A stretch of DNA of 64,000 nucleotides, from positions 1,302,001 through 1,366,000 of the forward strand of contig JAIXWF010000013.1 in assembly GCA_027482185.1 (NCBI GenBank), given 5' to 3'. Both the position numbers and the translations under genes were made by a program. Positions 1-12,909 of this stretch are shown one piece after another. Below the pieces are notes generated by a model. It made no database searches, was not told the origin of the DNA, and saw only the letters and a list, made by a program, of their open reading frames with translations. The stretch comes from Opitutaceae bacterium (GTDB lineage Bacteria; Verrucomicrobiota; Verrucomicrobiia; Opitutales; Opitutaceae). The number at the start of each line of letters is the position of its first letter. Within the stretch, counting starts at the first letter, position 1.

Positions 1-423
1 CCCGCGTGGTTCGATCTCGGCGTGTCCGATTGGACCGCCGCGCCGCAGAACAAATTCTCCGACTTCATGGCGCCCGCTCCCGGCGCCCGTGTCCTCTACG
101 ACCGGATCGCGACCGCCAAGGGGCTCAAGCTGAAGGGCAAGATGATGGAGATGTCCAACCCCACCTTCCGGCTGCTGCTCTCTACGCTCAACCTCCCGCT
201 GACGGGCGTCGGCGGCCAGTACAACCCGCTCGAAGGCGACCCGGTGCTCCGCGGCTGGCTGCAGCTCCAGCAGTACAACCAGGCGAACTCGCTCATCAAC
301 ACCGTCGACGTGTTCGTCGCGCTCACGGTGCCCGGCGACGTGGAGTTCGGCGAGAACCCGGTCGATGTGAACGTCGAAGCCGACGTGCTCTTCTCGACCC
401 TAAACACCGGCACGCTCGCCTGA
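1..423 (+). CDS. Probable phage major tail (tube) protein, 3' part
   Basis: The reading frame is open from the first base of the window, so the true start lies upstream. A GTG at 22 is inside the frame but is not needed as a start. The visible 140 residues are beta-rich, with little charge clustering. The Gly/Asn-rich stretch GVGGQYNPL is followed by a repeated strand pattern ending in DVLFSTLNTGTLA. Position in the operon, upstream of a tail chaperone and a tape measure gene, and this composition fit a tail tube subunit that polymerises into the tail shaft. No family signature is certain, so the name rests mostly on gene order. A minor structural or head-tail protein cannot be excluded. Confidence 0.5.
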   Translation, partial: PAWFDLGVSDWTAAPQNKFSDFMAPAPGARVLYDRIATAKGLKLKGKMMEMSNPTFRLLLSTLNLPLTGVGGQYNPLEGDPVLRGWLQLQQYNQANSLINTVDVFVALTVPGDVEFGENPVDVNVEADVLFSTLNTGTLA

Positions 424-448: not shown

Positions 449-1282
449 ATGCCGACGCCAAACTTCGCGCACGACAACACGCCGCCGGGCGGTGTGCCCC
501 GCGGGGACCAGACGCCCGCCAACGGCGCGCCGAATGGCGTGACGCTGGCGTCGCATGTCTTCGACAACACCCAGCCGGGGGCTGTGCCCGTAGCCACGGG
601 CGCCCCCGGCAACGGTGCCCCGACCGCAATCGCGCGGCCCTCGCAGGAACAGACCGGCGTGGCACCGGGGCAGGTTGCCGTGGCGACGCCGGAGCCCGCC
701 AACGGCGCGCCAACGGCCATCGCTCGCGTCGACCAGACTCCCCAAAACGGCGCACCGGACGGCGTCGCGGTCTCGACGGCTGCCCACAACAACGCCGCGC
801 CCGGCGCGATCCCGCGCCCCGATCAAACGCCCGGCAACGTCGATGCCGGGGCCGTGCCGGTTGCGAACACGGCAGGCACCGCCTCCACGCCGCAACCCAT
901 CGCGCTCGTCCCTTCCATCCCCGCTCTCTCCGACGAAAACATGCACACCGCCACGCTCTCCGCCGTCGGCAATCTCGCCGTCAACCAGGTCTTCGGCTTC
1001 TACAAGGCGCCCGCCGCCGCCGTGGTCAAAGGCGTGCAACTCGCCGCGCAGAAGGCTCCGGCCGGGGCCGATGTGATCGTCTCCCTGGTCGATGCCGACG
1101 GTATCGCGCTCGGCCGCACGGCCACTCTGCCCGCCGGCCAGGCGTTTGCCGAGGTGACCTTCGGCACGCCGCTGCCGCTGCTCACGGCGGCAGTCGTCCG
1201 CGCCAAGGTCACGCAGATCGGCACCGGCAACACGCCGGGCGCCTACCTCACGGCCAACCTCGTTGTGCAGCTCACCGCCTGA
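449..1282 (+). CDS. Phage structural protein with N-terminal Pro/Gly/Asn repeats
   Basis: Unrecognised 277-residue protein, 26 bases after the tail tube stop. Residues 1 to about 150 consist of around ten imperfect 14-16 residue repeats built on the pattern NGAP-x-x-(I/V)-(A/P), for example NGAPNGV, NTQPGAVP and NGAPTAIA. Charge is low and there are no cysteines. The remaining 120 residues look like a compact beta domain (VFGFYKAPAAAVVKGVQL, then VIVSLVDADGIALG). The organisation suggests a fibre or decoration protein with an extended repeat stalk and a globular head. Its place right after the tail tube gene makes a tail-surface decoration role possible. That role is inference only. Confidence 0.6.
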   Translation: MPTPNFAHDNTPPGGVPRGDQTPANGAPNGVTLASHVFDNTQPGAVPVATGAPGNGAPTAIARPSQEQTGVAPGQVAVATPEPANGAPTAIARVDQTPQNGAPDGVAVSTAAHNNAAPGAIPRPDQTPGNVDAGAVPVANTAGTASTPQPIALVPSIPALSDENMHTATLSAVGNLAVNQVFGFYKAPAAAVVKGVQLAAQKAPAGADVIVSLVDADGIALGRTATLPAGQAFAEVTFGTPLPLLTAAVVRAKVTQIGTGNTPGAYLTANLVVQLTA

Positions 1283-1291
1283 TCTCCCTCC

Positions 1292-2833
1292 ATGAAACGC
1301 CTCCTCGCTCTCTTCATCCTCGCCGCCGCTGTCGCCTCCGCCCAGGTCACGATTGCGTGGGAGGATATCGCGAAGCCTGCTCCGTTGAACGGGACCTCGA
1401 TCCTCGCCGGCAACGGTGCCGGCGGTTTCACGAGCGTCGTCGTCGGTGGCAACCTGTCCTTCACGGGCGGGACGCTGAACCTCTCGGCAACTCCGAATAT
1501 CGGCGCGGCGACCGGGACGAGCGTCTTGCTCAACCCGCTTCATGCCGCCGTGCGGCGCACCGAGATTCAGATCCCGCATACGGTTTCGACTGAGGACTTC
1601 CTCCGGGTGTCTTCGCTGTTCTCCGGCCAGACCTACGGCGCCGAGTACGGCTACGGTCTAACCGCCGGCGGCTCCCCGCAAATCCGCATCAATCGCCTCC
1701 ACGCCGGCGCTTCTACGCCGTGGCTCACGGTCGCGACGCTCGACGGTGCGGGCACCATCGCGGGCGATCTCACCCTTTCTGGCGCAAGCCGCCGCCTCTT
1801 TCTCACGGACGGCACGAACACCCTGACGTTGGGCCAGCACGATGGGTCGACGAACCGGATCGAGTCGAACGGCCGCGACTTGTACCTGACTAGCTACACG
1901 AACGTCATCCGGGCTGGCGGCAGCGGTGCGACGTGGCTGACGCTCAACAGCGCCGGCCTTTCGCTGACCGGCAATCTCTCGCTGACCGGCGGCTCAGGCC
2001 AGATTTCCGTTGCGAACAACGGGGTCGGCCTGTCCGTCGGCACCACACGCCCATTCACGTACAACGGCAGCGGCGTTGCGCAGATTCGAGGAGAAGCCGG
2101 GAACTGGGCGGTCCGTTACGGCTTTGCCGGCAGCGGCGGTACGGCGCGCGGCGGCTTCGGGGCCTACGGGACGGACGACGCTCTCGGATATCTATGGATC
2201 GGCACCGATCACTCGAATTTCTTTGCTCGGATCGACTCCGGGCAGACGCAGTTCACCACCCCTACCTTGTCCGTTGCGAGCAGCTCCGTCGGCCTGTTCC
2301 GAATGGATCGCGTGGGTGTGCGTCAGTGGAACCTGACCAACGACGGCAATATGGTTTGGAGCACTGGCGACGGTGCCGGCTCATTCACGTTCAGTAACAG
2401 CGCGGGCGTCCGGATCACGGGCACCAACAGCAACGACAACGCCGCCACTGGCTACGTCGGCGAGTACGTCGCAAGCACGGTCGCGGCCGGCAGTGCGATC
2501 AGTCTCACGAACAACACGCAGACCAACGCCATGAGCATTACGCTTACGGCCGGGGACTGGAACGTGTTTTTCTTTCCGACTTTCTCCGGGGCGCCCACGG
2601 GAACGGCTCTCACGGCTTCGGCTTCGACAATCTCCGCAACGCTCTCCGGCGCCTCGTTCGAAAACGCCCGCACCCCGACGATGCCGACTTCTGGCAGCGA
2701 CGTGAGCCTAGCCGCTCCGATGCTCCGCGTTTCAATCGGCAGCACGACTACGGTGTACGGCGTTGTGCGCGCAAATTTCACCTCTGGCACCGCTTCTGTC
2801 TATGGGCAGCTCCAAGCCCGCCGCGTCCGCTGA
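1292..2833 (+). CDS. Exported phage tail-fibre-like protein
   Basis: 513 residues beginning with a clear Sec-type signal peptide (MKRLLALFILAAAVASAQ, probable cleavage after SAQ). The rest is rich in Gly, Ser, Thr and Asn, with repeated short motifs such as LSLTGNLSLTGGSG and DGTNTLTLGQHDGSTNRIES. These resemble phage tail-fibre or bacterial surface beta-helix proteins with per-turn GT/GN motifs. No chaperone/S74-type catalytic end is evident. An export signal is unusual in a tail-fibre gene, because virions normally assemble in the cytoplasm. Either the signal is used and the product is a secreted cell-surface protein, or it is a cargo gene within the tail operon. Confidence 0.6.
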   Translation: MKRLLALFILAAAVASAQVTIAWEDIAKPAPLNGTSILAGNGAGGFTSVVVGGNLSFTGGTLNLSATPNIGAATGTSVLLNPLHAAVRRTEIQIPHTVSTEDFLRVSSLFSGQTYGAEYGYGLTAGGSPQIRINRLHAGASTPWLTVATLDGAGTIAGDLTLSGASRRLFLTDGTNTLTLGQHDGSTNRIESNGRDLYLTSYTNVIRAGGSGATWLTLNSAGLSLTGNLSLTGGSGQISVANNGVGLSVGTTRPFTYNGSGVAQIRGEAGNWAVRYGFAGSGGTARGGFGAYGTDDALGYLWIGTDHSNFFARIDSGQTQFTTPTLSVASSSVGLFRMDRVGVRQWNLTNDGNMVWSTGDGAGSFTFSNSAGVRITGTNSNDNAATGYVGEYVASTVAAGSAISLTNNTQTNAMSITLTAGDWNVFFFPTFSGAPTGTALTASASTISATLSGASFENARTPTMPTSGSDVSLAAPMLRVSIGSTTTVYGVVRANFTSGTASVYGQLQARRVR

Positions 2834-2850
2834 CCCGCTGATTTCTTTCC

Positions 2851-3345
2851 ATGAAAAACATCATCCTCGCTCTCGCGCTTACTCTCGCCGCGGTGCTCCG
2901 CGCCGCCGAGCCTACCGTCACGATTGACCTCTACGGCAACGTGTTCCTCAACGGGCAGAATACGAACCGCCAGGTCGCCGATTTCGCCCGCGATCCAGCA
3001 AACTTCGTGCTCGCGCCGCAACTCGATGCCGCCGTGCGCGACGCCGCCACCGCCGCCCGCGCACGCATAGCCGCCGACATTCAGGCCGCGCAGACCGCTG
3101 CGACCGCCGAGAAAACCGCCGCCATCGCCGCCGCCGAGCAGGCGCGGGATTCGGCCATTGCCGCAAACGCCGCGGATCTCGCCGCCGCGAGGGCGGAGGC
3201 GGCTGCCGGGCGCGACGCGCGCACCGAGAACGAATTGCTCCGCGCCCAGGTCGCCGATCTCGCGGCCAGGCTTGCCGCGGCCAACGCCCGCATCGCCGCA
3301 CTCGAAGCCCAGATCCGCAACCTCGGCGCCACGCCGAATCCCTGA
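2851..3345 (+). CDS. Exported Ala-rich coiled-coil protein in phage operon
   Basis: 164 residues starting with a Sec-type signal (MKNIILALALTLAAVLRAAE). A short beta segment follows (PTVTIDLYGNVFLNGQNT). Residues from about 55 to the end form a long alanine-rich heptad region with alternating Glu/Arg/Asp, a predicted coiled coil. The start lies 17 bases after the previous stop, and the next gene starts 6 bases after this stop, so co-transcription is likely. No named family is recognised. With the preceding gene it makes a pair of consecutive phage genes with export signals, possibly an envelope-associated spanin-like or lysogenic-conversion product. That idea is speculative. Confidence 0.6.
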   Translation: MKNIILALALTLAAVLRAAEPTVTIDLYGNVFLNGQNTNRQVADFARDPANFVLAPQLDAAVRDAATAARARIAADIQAAQTAATAEKTAAIAAAEQARDSAIAANAADLAAARAEAAAGRDARTENELLRAQVADLAARLAAANARIAALEAQIRNLGATPNP

Positions 3346-3351
3346 GGCGCC

Positions 3352-3849
3352 ATGACTACGACCACTCCCGCCGCCAAAACGGCGATGATCTTCGCCGGCG
3401 AAACATTCGACGGCTCCGATGCTCAGCATCCCAAGGCGAGCGACGTCGAAGGCAACCTGCACGAGGTCCGGGTGCGGGCGCTGCCGGCCCGCCACCTGGG
3501 TGAGGTGCTGAAGGCGTGCACCGACGAGGCGGCGATGCTGGAACTCGTGTGCGTCCTCGCCGTGCGTGACGACAAGGGCGAGTTGATCGACTGGCTGAAG
3601 GTCGATGCCTCCTTCGTCGACAACCTCGACGACGCCTCGCACGTGATGCTCCTGGAGGCGGCGCAGCGCCTAAATTTTTCCCGCGCCGCGAGCTGGGGCG
3701 AGAGACAGATCGCGGCGAAGCAGTTCCAGGCGCCGCTGCTCCTGAAGGCGGACGAGATGCTGAGTCCGATCGTGGAGCGGATGGCCGGCTTGCTGATCTC
3801 GTCGTTGAAGTTGTCCGCGTCACCGGGCGCACCTTCGACGAAGTCCTAG
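3352..3849 (+). CDS. Putative tail assembly chaperone (gpG-like)
   Basis: 165 residues, acidic and mostly helical, directly upstream of the tape measure gene. This is the conserved position of the tail assembly chaperones (G and G-T in lambda). Residues 20-100 contain a small alpha/beta region (VRVRALPARHLGEVLKACTD); the C-terminal part is helical. After the in-frame TAG at 3847 the -1 frame stays open to 4082 and has coding character but no ATG, GTG or TTG start. This suggests a longer frameshifted product, as in lambda-like tails. Sequence similarity to known chaperones is weak, so gene order carries the call. Confidence 0.6.
   Translation: MTTTTPAAKTAMIFAGETFDGSDAQHPKASDVEGNLHEVRVRALPARHLGEVLKACTDEAAMLELVCVLAVRDDKGELIDWLKVDASFVDNLDDASHVMLLEAAQRLNFSRAASWGERQIAAKQFQAPLLLKADEMLSPIVERMAGLLISSLKLSASPGAPSTKS
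3672..3678 (+). promoter_or_regulatory. Candidate -1 ribosomal frameshift heptamer A-AAT-TTT
   Basis: The zero-frame codons are CTA-AAT-TTT-TCC. The seven bases from 3672 match the X-XXY-YYZ slippery pattern exactly in the phase needed for a -1 shift into the open downstream frame. Against it, the zero frame keeps strong GC-third-position coding character for about 110 bases beyond this site, so the real shift point could lie nearer 3795-3825, where no canonical heptamer is seen. Confidence 0.4.
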
Positions 3850-4082
3850 ACAATTTCACGCTCCAGCAACTGCTGGCCCTTCGCGAGGCGGCGGAACGCG
3901 CCGAGGCCCGACACACCCTGGGCGTTCTCCAATCGCTGCGGCAAGCGATCCCCGCCTCGCTCGACGACAGCACCGGAAGCCGCGAAGCGTTCCTGAAGTT
4001 CGAAGCCCAACTCATCACGAAAGCGAACGGCGCCGCGCCGGAAAAGAAGCGGCGCTGGTCGCGCAGCAAACGCAGCACGTAA
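3678..4082 (+). CDS. -1 frame extension of the tail chaperone (gpG-T-like T part)
   Basis: The -1 frame relative to the chaperone gene is open from before 3663 to the TAA at 4080-4082. From about 3798 it reads as a convincing protein of about 94 residues with helical content (LQQLLALREAAERAEARHTL) and a basic end (KKRRWSRSKRST). It has no ATG, GTG or TTG codon, so it cannot be a separate gene with a normal start. Its stop overlaps the tape measure start (TAATG). A programmed -1 frameshift is the simplest explanation. A sequencing indel near 3795-3825 is the alternative. The N-terminal boundary given here is the earliest possible one. Confidence 0.55.
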   Translation, partial: FPRRELGRETDRGEAVPGAAAPEGGRDAESDRGADGRLADLVVEVVRVTGRTFDEVLDNFTLQQLLALREAAERAEARHTLGVLQSLRQAIPASLDDSTGSREAFLKFEAQLITKANGAAPEKKRRWSRSKRST

Positions 4083-6745
4083 TGGCGAACACCGCACCGA
4101 ACACCATCGACATCCTGATCGATATCCGCGCCAAGCTCGACGAGCTCACGCGGGGACAGACAGCGATGCGTGGGCTCGCGGAGGACACCCGCGATGCCAA
4201 CCGGGAGGCAAACAACCTCGGGGCGTCGTTCAAGACGGGGCTCGGCATCGAGGTTGCCCGGCGCGGCATCGAGCTGCTCACGGGGTCGCTGCGTGAATCG
4301 GTCGCGTTCGCATCGCGCTTGTCCGATGAAGTCGAGCGGGCCGGAGTGCGCGCCGGCCTTTCCGGCGAAGTCTATCAGGCGCTCGGCTTTCACCTGAAAC
4401 AGGCGGGCGGCTCGGCCGAGGAACTCGTCGGGGCGATGGAATTCCTGCGTCGCACGCTCGGCGAGGCCAGCGATCCGAAGAGCGGCCCGGCGAAGACGCT
4501 GAACGAACTCGGGCTTTCGTTCCGCCAACTGCGCGGCCTTGCCGTCGAGGATCAATTCGAGCGGATCGCCCGCGGGCTGGCCAGGGTCGGCGACGAGAAT
4601 CGCCGCGCCACATTGACGGCCGCGCTACTCGGCCGTGGTTCGGCGTCGCTGAACGACCTGCTCGACCAGCTCGCGCGGCGCGGGCTGGGAGCACTCACCT
4701 CGGAGGCCCAGAAGGCGTCGGGCGTCATGTCGAACGACATGTCCCGTGCCATCGACGAGGCGGGAGACCGCGCGGAGGCTGCGCGGGAGAAGTTCGAGAA
4801 GATGCTGGCGCCGTTCACGCTCGGCGCAAAGGAACGCTCGGCCGCGATCAACCAGCTCAAGGCGGACTTGGCCGAAGCGCTGGTCCAGAATCCCGGCAAG
4901 AGCGTTCTCGCCGTGGGCGGCGTCGCGGCGGCGGCCGCGGCGGGAGGCGTCGCTTTGGCGGGCGGGCTCGGCTCGCCGCAGGCGTGGGGATTCGTCGCCG
5001 GCGCGGCGCTCGCGCGCGCGAGTGCCTTGGCGGTGCCGGCTTGGACTGCTATCGGAACCATCGTGGCGGCCGGCGTTCTCGCGGCCATCGTCGAGAGCAA
5101 GCTCCTGGAGGCGGGGCAGATTCGGCGCGACACGGTCAAAGACAGTGAGCAGGCCGACGACGAGCGGCGGCGGTCCCTGGCCAACTCACTCCGCGACGCC
5201 CGCGACCCGGCAATGGTGTCGCGCGTGCAGGCGGAGGCGACGCGCAGGGCGCGCGACCTTTCGCGGCGGTCCGGCGAGCAGGAAGATCCGGCCGAGCGCG
5301 CGCGGCTGGAGGGTTTGTCCAAGGCGTACACGGTAATCGTCGCGCAGGCGCGAACCCAGGGCGCGGAGATCGTAAAAGCGAACCAGGCACTCGATGAGCA
5401 AAAGGCGATCCTCGCGGCCATCCCGAAGACGTGGGACCAACTCACTGAGGAAGAACAGAAGGCCGCCAAGGAACGCGGGGAAGCATTGGCGCAGGAAGCG
5501 AAGGTCGCAGGCCAACAGCTCCTGATCAATCTGGCCAACGTGCGGGCGCTGCGCGAGCAGGCGGAGGCGCGAAAACTCAAGGCGGAGGAGGACGCGAAGG
5601 CGCTCGCCACCGCAGAGCGTGAAGCGGCCATAACGAAAAAGAGTGCCGAGGTTTCGGCCCTCAACGCGGAGGCAGGGCGTATCTCCAGCCGGGCCGATAT
5701 CGATGCCGGAACGAAGCAGTCGAAGTTGGCCGAGATCTACGAACGTATCCGCAAAGCCATCGCTGAGATCGTGACGCTGAAGGAGAAGGAGCTGGCGCTC
5801 ACGGCTGCCACCGATCCGGTGAAGCGCGCCCAAATCGAGGCGGATATCGCTGCTGCGCGCGTCGAGGCGGCCACCCTCGGGATCGGCGATCCGGCAACCG
5901 GGATTGAGGGATACCGCGAGCGTGCGCGCAACCGCATGCGGGGACCGGAATCCATCTCCGCCGGCGATGGCATCGAGGCGGGCGCGCTCAACTTCGTGAC
6001 GTCGCTCGGCTCGCAGGGCGAGCAGGTCGCGGCCGCGATCCAGAACTCGCTCGGCTCGGCGGTGCGGAGCATCGGCGACGGAATCTACGGCTGGATCACC
6101 GGCGCGCAGACGTTCGGGGCCACGATGCGAGATCTCGCCGGCAACGTTCTGCAGACGTTCCTGCAAACGCTCGTAGAGATGGGCGTGCAATGGGTGGTCA
6201 ATGCCGCGCTGGCAAAGGGCTCGTTGATTTCGACCTTCCTAGTCGCTTCGGGCCTGCGCAAAGCCGAGACCGCGGAAGTGATCGCGGGAGAGACCGCGAA
6301 GTCGCCGGCGATTATGGCCAACGCGGCTGGGGCGTCCGTGTCTTCGTTCGGCCTCGCGGCCGCGCTCGGTATCGCGGCCTTGCTGGCGGTCATGGCGGCC
6401 TTCGGCGGATTCCGCGAGCACGGTGGTCCGGTCCAGCCGGGCCGCGCCTACATCGTGGGCGAAAAGCGGCCCGAGGTGTTCGTGCCAGACGTGCCCGGCT
6501 CTATCGTCCCGAGCCTCGACGATCTCGCCATTCCCGCAGCGACCCCGGCGCGGGCCGTGCAGGCGGCCCCGGCGTTCTCGACCGGAGCCGCACTGGCGGC
6601 CGCTGGCGGCGGCGGGTCGAAGCGCGAGCGGGTCTTCGCGGTCGTCGACCGTCCGACCATGAAGCAGATCATGCGTGAAGATCCGGAGGCCGAGAGCGTG
6701 ATTGCCGACGTCATCTACCGCCGCCGCGGCGACCTTTTCTCCTGA
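4082..6745 (+). CDS. Tape measure protein
   Basis: 887 residues, the usual scale for a siphovirus tail length ruler. The N-terminal third is helical. A long Ala/Gly hydrophobic stretch lies at about residues 278-340, a charged coiled coil at about 345-600, and further hydrophobic segments at about 690-780. Near the C-terminus is the motif GGPVQPGRAYIVGEKRPEVF, which matches the G-G-x-V-x-x-G-x-x-Y-x-V-G-E-x-x-P-E box common in tape measure proteins. The start overlaps the stop of the frameshift product, and the stop overlaps the next start (TGATG), so translation is probably coupled. It should set tail length and be threaded inside the tube before DNA ejection. Confidence 0.88.
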   Translation: MANTAPNTIDILIDIRAKLDELTRGQTAMRGLAEDTRDANREANNLGASFKTGLGIEVARRGIELLTGSLRESVAFASRLSDEVERAGVRAGLSGEVYQALGFHLKQAGGSAEELVGAMEFLRRTLGEASDPKSGPAKTLNELGLSFRQLRGLAVEDQFERIARGLARVGDENRRATLTAALLGRGSASLNDLLDQLARRGLGALTSEAQKASGVMSNDMSRAIDEAGDRAEAAREKFEKMLAPFTLGAKERSAAINQLKADLAEALVQNPGKSVLAVGGVAAAAAAGGVALAGGLGSPQAWGFVAGAALARASALAVPAWTAIGTIVAAGVLAAIVESKLLEAGQIRRDTVKDSEQADDERRRSLANSLRDARDPAMVSRVQAEATRRARDLSRRSGEQEDPAERARLEGLSKAYTVIVAQARTQGAEIVKANQALDEQKAILAAIPKTWDQLTEEEQKAAKERGEALAQEAKVAGQQLLINLANVRALREQAEARKLKAEEDAKALATAEREAAITKKSAEVSALNAEAGRISSRADIDAGTKQSKLAEIYERIRKAIAEIVTLKEKELALTAATDPVKRAQIEADIAAARVEAATLGIGDPATGIEGYRERARNRMRGPESISAGDGIEAGALNFVTSLGSQGEQVAAAIQNSLGSAVRSIGDGIYGWITGAQTFGATMRDLAGNVLQTFLQTLVEMGVQWVVNAALAKGSLISTFLVASGLRKAETAEVIAGETAKSPAIMANAAGASVSSFGLAAALGIAALLAVMAAFGGFREHGGPVQPGRAYIVGEKRPEVFVPDVPGSIVPSLDDLAIPAATPARAVQAAPAFSTGAALAAAGGGGSKRERVFAVVDRPTMKQIMREDPEAESVIADVIYRRRGDLFS

Positions 6746-12819: not shown

Positions 12820-12909
12820 TGGCGGAAGGGGTGGGATTCGAACCCACGGTGAGCTTTCACCCACGCCAGTTTTCAAGACTGGAGCCATAAACCACTCGGC
12901 CACCCTTCC
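12820..12909 (-). tRNA. tRNA-Ser (anticodon UGA)
   Basis: On the minus strand a 90-base class II tRNA can be folded. The acceptor GGAAGGG pairs with CCCTTCC (plus positions 12824-12830). The anticodon stem encloses the loop CTTGAAA with anticodon TGA. A long variable arm and the T-loop GGTTCGAATCC follow, then discriminator G and an encoded CCA at 12820-12822. The phage module ends about 90 bases from its 3' end, which makes it a likely integration target. Confidence 0.95.

Follow-up and report, generated by a model that had tools for sequence, protein, structure and literature searches.

Results

A Tail Chaperone Gene with an Overlapping −1 Frame

The window, by which we mean the whole 64,000-nucleotide stretch of DNA that was analysed, contains a phage tail module whose features are collected in Table 1. 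The chaperone gene and its neighbors are part of a prophage, as indicated by the terminase (phrog_675) and portal (phrog_113) genes upstream. The tail genes extend to 12486, and the tRNA-Ser gene that follows is a likely attachment site. The 40 kb preceding the window contain no exact same-strand repeat (14 to 30 bases) of the tRNA-Ser zone.

Table 1. Features of the Chaperone Locus and Its Surroundings
Feature	Positions	Strand	Description and basis
Probable major tail protein	22..423	+	Named by inference from position; ORF start ∼116 bases before the window
Zero-frame gene, most likely a tail assembly chaperone (gpG-like)	3352..3849	+	ATG 3352 to TAG 3849, 165 aa
GGAGG, Shine-Dalgarno-like, role doubtful	3654..3658	+	Sequence; 13 nt 5′ of the heptamer
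Putative slip site A_AAT_TTT	3672..3678	+	Zero-frame codons AAT TTT, predicted re-pairing on AAA TTT
−1 frame extension	3678..4082	+	With zero-frame residues 1–109 gives a predicted 243-aa fusion (GT-like), length by arithmetic
Post-slip segment readable in both frames	3679..3849	+	57 codons including the stop
Putative stimulatory stem, 5′ arm	3684..3691	+	5-nt spacer from the heptamer
Putative stimulatory stem, 3′ arm	3710..3717	+	Covariation, folding
T-like domain, conserved in the −1 frame, predicted all-helical	3786..4079	+	Alignments, codon-position pattern, model pLDDT 79
Tape measure protein, 887 aa	4082..6745	+	phrog_1107, tail length tape measure, E 2.2e-15
tRNA-Ser (TGA)	12820..12909	−	Just past the last tail gene

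Directly upstream of the tape measure gene, the chaperone frame is overlapped by a second frame that stands in the −1 relation to it. This −1 frame is open over 3603–4079 and closes with TAA at 4080–4082, so that it overlaps the tape measure ATG at 4082 by one base. Over 3672–4079 it comprises 136 codons with neither a stop nor an ATG, GTG, or TTG, in agreement with the initial annotation, which had described a start-less frame running into the tape measure start. The heptamer that had been pointed out within the gene is in the correct phase: the zero-frame codons read CTA AAT TTT, and the first A of the heptamer is the third base of CTA.

The probable major tail protein has no match among the protein families searched. 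Relatives of it are found upstream of the chaperone in four loci (L001, L068, L069, and L071; L numbers denote loci), and the order of probable major tail protein, chaperone, and tape measure is kept among relatives in L001 and L071. Three genes at 449–3345 separate the probable major tail protein from the chaperone. They encode a protein of 277 aa containing NGAPT-like repeats, one of 513 aa whose C terminus is tail-fibre-like (phrog_11393, E 3.9e-10), and a secreted-looking coiled coil of 164 aa. At least parts of all three are matched upstream of the chaperone in L001. A 406-aa protein that very strongly matches a family of unknown function (phrog_11143, E 1.3e-150) was observed between the portal and tail genes at L076:15931–17148.

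Homologous Loci

Searches with the protein of the window, or with alignments of it, returned matches in 5 of 38 close genomes. At wider taxonomic ranks, the family yielded matches in 20 of 252 genomes, the order in 28 of 372, the class in 12 of 384, and the phylum in 12 of 387; these genome sets overlap, and each includes the window's own genome. Genome and viral contigs contributed L001, L007, L008, and L066–L075, some of them duplicates. Twenty-two loci were removed as duplicates because their last 200 bases were identical to those of another, which reduced the set to 51 (L002 is the locus of the window), and exclusion of L061, which is cut by a contig end, gave 50 usable loci. L009 and L018 were dropped for having no profile match, and a weak match with stops in genome G120 was found by the later profile not to be a homologue. 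Protein identity to the window is as low as 24% in alignment A2. The contig of L001 also occurs in G023, a genome placed in the window's own genus, and for this reason the phage host is taken to be a Verrucomicrobiota bacterium.

In a collection of 50,697 phage records that includes lambda, tblastn returned no match at E 1 to either of the window's two halves and none at E 0.1 to L020, L031, or L017. Each of the 50 usable loci has a −1 frame that extends beyond the zero-frame stop, the excess being 10 to 123 codons (the extension of L048 is cut by the contig end). Whether homologues conserve this frame had been raised with the initial annotation as a point on which the idea could fail, and they do so in 50 of 50.

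Conservation and Exchange of the Slip Heptamer

At the codons aligned with those of the window, A_AAT_TTY is present in 30 of the 50 loci, the window included (21 AAATTTT and 9 AAATTTC). Among the 43 loci with Asn-Phe at the site, again counting the window, A_AAT before TTY was observed 30 times, against 1.15 expected from codon usage. The corresponding Poisson-binomial tail of 3.6e-44 assumes independent loci and is not to be taken literally, because the loci share ancestry. Codon usage was derived for each locus from the part of the gene preceding the site together with the longest ORF further downstream in the locus, taken as the tape measure, and for the window from the gene up to the site and the whole tape measure. 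The heptamer of the window is kept despite rare codons, CTA accounting for 2 of 96 Leu and AAT for 4 of 24 Asn codons. Across the loci, the codon preceding AAT is mostly CTA and otherwise CAA, ATA, GTA, or TTA.

Ten more loci possess another in-phase heptamer, nine of them 2–3 codons downstream. Seven of the ten have CCCTTTN at +6 or +9 nt from the aligned site; the others, each seen in a single locus, are TTTTTTC at +9, AAATTTT at +6, and AAAAAAG at +51. A strict in-phase X_XXY_YYZ heptamer (Y = A/T) is present in 40 of the 50 loci, including the window. The ten loci without one (L019, L045, L047, L049, L052, L053, L069, and L071–L073) carry only U_UUU, U_UUC, or C_CCU tetramers at the site, possibly at chance level. 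TTTCCCT in L052 and CCCGGGC in L031, in which Y is C or G, were excluded as slip sites.

A survey in E. coli lists H_HHU_UUY among the efficient −1 motifs, and its working tetramers include U_UUC, U_UUU, and C_CCU (Sharma et al., 2014; PMC4066793). Most of the observed slip motifs fit the E. coli rules as given there, because both this class and these tetramers are among them: A_AAU_UUY, C_CCU_UUU, and U_UUU_UUC are members of the H_HHU_UUY class, and CCCTTTA and CCCTTTG (L031 and L058) fall outside it. An AAATTTT slippery heptamer is described for a Wolbachia prophage, where it is shown in a hydrolase, and papers that mention AAAUUUU are, by title, on RNA viruses. A published description of the present Verrucomicrobia slip site was not found in the literature searched.

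The motif classes need 10 changes on a tree of the loci, the minimum possible being 3; the tree (50 rows, 98 columns, 23 of 47 inner branches open) was used for this remark on motif turnover only. Six of the loci, L045, L047, L069, L071, L072, and L073, form one clade (SH-aLRT 98) in which C_AAT_TTT replaces A_AAT_TTT. An 8-bp hairpin is predicted 6 bases downstream in this clade, where slippage may possibly involve the A site only. The distant homologue L060 has A_AAA_AAG at 1764–1770, 17 codons past the aligned site, and with 5 zero-frame codons left is more lambda-like.

Absence of −1 Stops from the Heptamer Onward

The position at which ribosomes would enter the −1 frame was deduced from the distribution of stop codons. 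Over the 50 loci, −1 stops occupy 131/4339 codons before the site and 1/2800 between the site and the zero-frame stop, a region in which the +1 frame has 105/2800. Leaving aside the last 25 overlap codons gives 0/1565 for the −1 frame and 69 stops for the +1 frame. Restricting the count to loci with a strict heptamer (40 loci) leads to the same picture (−1 stops 106/3578 before and 0/1277 after; +1 stops after, 54). The only −1 stop after the aligned site is in L053, immediately before that locus's own site at +9 (G_CCT_TTT), and the site of L053 was set by hand to this position for the 0/1565 count and for the analysis of the −1 coding pattern. In the stop counts and the codon-pattern tests, the aligned column served as the site for the 10 loci that lack a strict heptamer.

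In 10 loci, the last −1 stop is just 3 to 6 bases 5′ of the site. By synonymous resampling, 16.2 of 50 loci are expected to be open in the −1 frame by chance; 49 were found, or 50 with the L053 site moved. From the slip site onward, the −1 frame stays open and is under coding selection. Complete openness over 1565 codons would be required only of a frame entered at the heptamer or before it, and this speaks strongly against entry near 3800. On these comparisons over 50 aligned loci, the best-supported candidate for the shift site is A_AAT_TTT at 3672–3678. The slip heptamer, the open −1 frame, and the gene order together support the layout of a programmed −1 frameshift tail chaperone, as had been proposed initially.

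A Covarying Stem Downstream of the Heptamer

The GC-rich stem listed in Table 1 is paired in 94.3% of cells across 11 loci, and three of its pairs are changed on both sides, a number matched in 10 of 500 shuffles. Its covariation score of 0.248 compares with 0.102 in shuffled alignments (0/500 reach it) and with ≤0.084 in slid registers. The core of the stem was found independently by RNAalifold. The covarying pairs 13/46 and 16/43 both join third codon positions, and changes at these pairs can therefore be synonymous; pair 18/41 links a second and a first position. Weak points of the stem are one mismatch in L007 and the outermost pair, which is unpaired in 4 of 11 loci.

The 63-base segment that follows the site has stronger predicted folding than its synonymous shuffles (mean z −1.16, s.e.m. 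0.16, 49 loci), and the z values at five other offsets are between −0.02 and −0.49. Among the 12 loci listed, individual values are positive in L001 and L008. A structured RNA a few bases 3′ of a heptamer is a signal of the dnaX or IS3 type, and the stem probably stimulates slippage. A hairpin in the L021 and L045 groups is 98.8% paired and provides no covariation support, because its pairs hardly vary. Rfam at gathering scores had no match in 3300–4300.

The GGAGG upstream of the heptamer was considered as a Shine-Dalgarno stimulator. Pairing with the anti-Shine-Dalgarno sequence upstream of the site is slightly beyond that of synonymous shuffles (mean z −0.37, s.e.m. 0.16, 50 loci), and with so weak a signal this role is not claimed.

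Constraint Passes from One Frame to the Other within the Overlap

Zero-frame codon bias was noted in the initial annotation to persist for about 110 bases past the heptamer. This is confirmed, and the bias is explained by the 57-codon stretch that is readable in both frames. The number of zero-frame codons after the heptamer has a median of 52 and a range of 5 to 136 over the 50 loci, with 56 in the window. In three of the four groups tested, the zero frame is dominant first and the −1 frame becomes dominant in about the last 20 codons of the overlap. Before the site, the most variable zero-frame position in group g1 is, taken overall, the third; zero-frame dominance persists for ∼35 codons after it, and the pattern then reverses. 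Over 3808–3837, the differences at zero-frame positions 1, 2, and 3 are 0.25, 0.51, and 0.14 in this group, the third position being here the first position of the −1 codon.

Fourfold sites follow the same course. Those differing in g1 fall from 143/257 before the site to 51/136 in the first part of the overlap and 24/88 in the last 25 codons, those in g3 from 192/350 to 54/149 and 38/112, and g1b changes in the same direction. Group g2 is the exception, with 29/96, 42/85, and 32/97 in the same three segments, and over the last 25 codons its third position still varies most. Past the zero-frame stop, variability is highest at the third position of the −1 codon in g1, g1b, and g3, the three groups tested there, as is normal for coding sequence. 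Amino-acid constraint in the −1 frame is slight over the first ∼35 codons past the site. Because constraint is handed over along the overlap, from the zero frame to the −1 frame, both frames appear to be used in one stretch, which would encode first a tolerant −1 linker and last a zero-frame passenger tail.

The handover bears on the suggestion, made in the initial annotation, of a non-standard slip near 3800. A slip at 3790–3810, with A_AAT_TTT incidental, would place the shift where the codon-position constraint switches, which is not at the heptamer, and TCGTCG followed by TTG or CTG near 3790–3810 is common to four loci (the window's own, L004, L005, and L006). Such a slip leaves unexplained why none of the 1565 codons between heptamer and handover is a −1 stop, why the heptamer is conserved against codon usage, and why in nine loci another slippery heptamer stands in its stead at almost the same position. 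The suggestion was rejected on the absence of −1 stops from the heptamer onward, and we consider this alternative very unlikely. For placing a slip, depletion of −1 stops marks the site, and codon bias marks only the handover of constraint.

Just as improbable is a separate gene in the −1 frame that is translated from an internal start, either a non-AUG codon or an NTG over a conserved Trp codon, with no frameshift at all. The conserved TGG creates a start-like −1 codon at +7 codons in 14 of the 50 loci, ATG in six (L045, L047, L068, and L071–L073) and GTG or TTG in eight (L003, L013, L021, L024, L028, L048, L062, and L067), and the window has CTG. Against this, 11 of the 50 loci, the window included, lack any −1 ATG, GTG, or TTG from the site to 30 nt past the zero-frame stop, and the window lacks them up to 4079. 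Such a start would also offer no explanation for the stem or for the slippery heptamers and the phase in which they lie.

Transcriptional slippage on an A/T run could likewise generate a fusion and is less probable still. The run in the window is A3T5, and runs are short elsewhere, with AAATTTC in nine loci and CCCTTTA in one; An above 7 and Tn above 8 are reported for such slippage (PMC3711429). Maintenance of the heptamer in a single phase also argues against it. An indel from sequencing or assembly, or a decaying gene, has nothing in its favor beyond the frame break itself and is the least credible reading, because the −1 frame passes the zero-frame stop in 50 of 50 usable loci, which is not what an error in one assembly would give, and the substitution pattern in the −1 frame is of the coding type in the three groups tested.

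The Two Predicted Proteins

The zero-frame protein of the window is most likely a tail assembly chaperone, although the direct family evidence for the window's protein itself is weak: it matches phrog_344 ("tail assembly chaperone") at E 0.075. Three of the 23 members of alignment A2 match phrog_1442, also "tail assembly chaperone" (best E 8.4e-8), and the window's own protein has no phrog_1442 match at 0.01. For the two halves of the window, Pfam returned nothing, and for a few relatives it gave only weak unrelated matches and no chaperone family. A PDB sequence search with A2 returned one match, to a ribosomal protein (E 0.53).

The model of the zero-frame protein (mean pLDDT 78) has a compact, well-predicted part to about residue 110, followed by a less certain helix. 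The putative slip point, N108–F109, coincides with the end of the compact part. In a Foldseek search with this model, the HK97 chaperone 2ob9 ranks 2–3, with a nonsignificant E of 0.92. The T-like part is modeled as helical (mean pLDDT 79), and its fold search gave helical matches without meaning (best E 1.2). No PHROG at 0.01 and only weak unrelated Pfam matches were obtained for the T-like domain with 23 members of alignment A3.

Discussion

These observations suggest that a prophage of a Verrucomicrobiota host would make two tail assembly chaperones from one gene. The majority of ribosomes would translate the zero-frame gene to its stop and produce the 165-aa gpG-like protein. In a fraction of ribosomes, both tRNAs would slip back one base on A_AAU_UUU, probably aided by the GC-rich stem 5 bases downstream, and reading would continue in the −1 frame to 4082. 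The predicted 243-aa fusion combines the shared N-terminal domain with an Arg/Gly/Ala-rich linker and the helical T-like domain. The ratio of the two products would set tape measure loading and polymerization of the tail tube, as in lambda. We put the probability of this mechanism as a whole, a programmed −1 slip at A_AAT_TTT that is aided by a stem and yields two chaperones, at about 93%. The analysis demonstrates where the heptamer lies and that it is conserved, that the −1 frame is open and under selection, that the stem covaries, and how the genes are ordered; the occurrence and efficiency of slippage, the stimulating effect of the stem, and the functions of the two proteins are inferred.

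The locus resembles lambda G/GT in several respects. The gene lies between those for the tail tube and the tape measure, a −1 shift would give a short and an extended product, and the end of the extension overlaps the tape measure start; the mode of action of lambda G/GT is taken here as described in a review (PMC5009743). In contrast, the lambda slip site is G_GGA_AAG, whereas A_AAU_UUY is found here, and neither half was matched by tblastn in the phage collection that holds lambda. Lambda has 5 and P2 has 6 zero-frame codons after the heptamer, compared with 56 in the window, a comparison that covers lambda and P2 only. In P2 E/E+E′, the annotated −1 site is likewise just before a putative tail-length gene, and the heptamer T_TTT_TTG ends in UUN, as do most heptamers here, but P2 has a tail sheath. 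HK97 gp13/gp14 is, by annotation, a chaperone with a −1 extension, and 2ob9 is among the top Foldseek matches; at E 0.92, this does not establish a kinship of fold. A strict heptamer could not be placed near the end of HK97 gp13. The locus represents a new family of a known kind, the lambda G/GT type, with an unusually clear recoding signal.

A more specific picture may be drawn tentatively, at a little below even odds. The slip would take place at the end of the globular domain of the chaperone, ∼50 codons before the zero-frame stop, and the same nucleotides would then encode two working C termini: first the helix of the short protein, and then the start of the T domain, over which the zero frame would carry an overprinted Pro/Ser-rich tail. 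The motif would turn over among A_AAU_UUY, C_CCU_UUN, and U_UUU_UUC, jumping by two or three codons with the A-site UUN kept, and the CAATTTT clade may combine A-site-only slippage with a strong hairpin.

Frameshifting by −1 in tail chaperone genes is known in other phages. What is new here is the exact candidate site and its signal in a hardly studied phage family. The start-less −1 half is likely overlooked by gene callers. For phages without a tblastn match in the phage records searched, the locus provides an exact, testable recoding signal, and the natural slip variants at one aligned position would allow the exchange of the slip motif, the hairpin, and A-site-only slippage to be studied.
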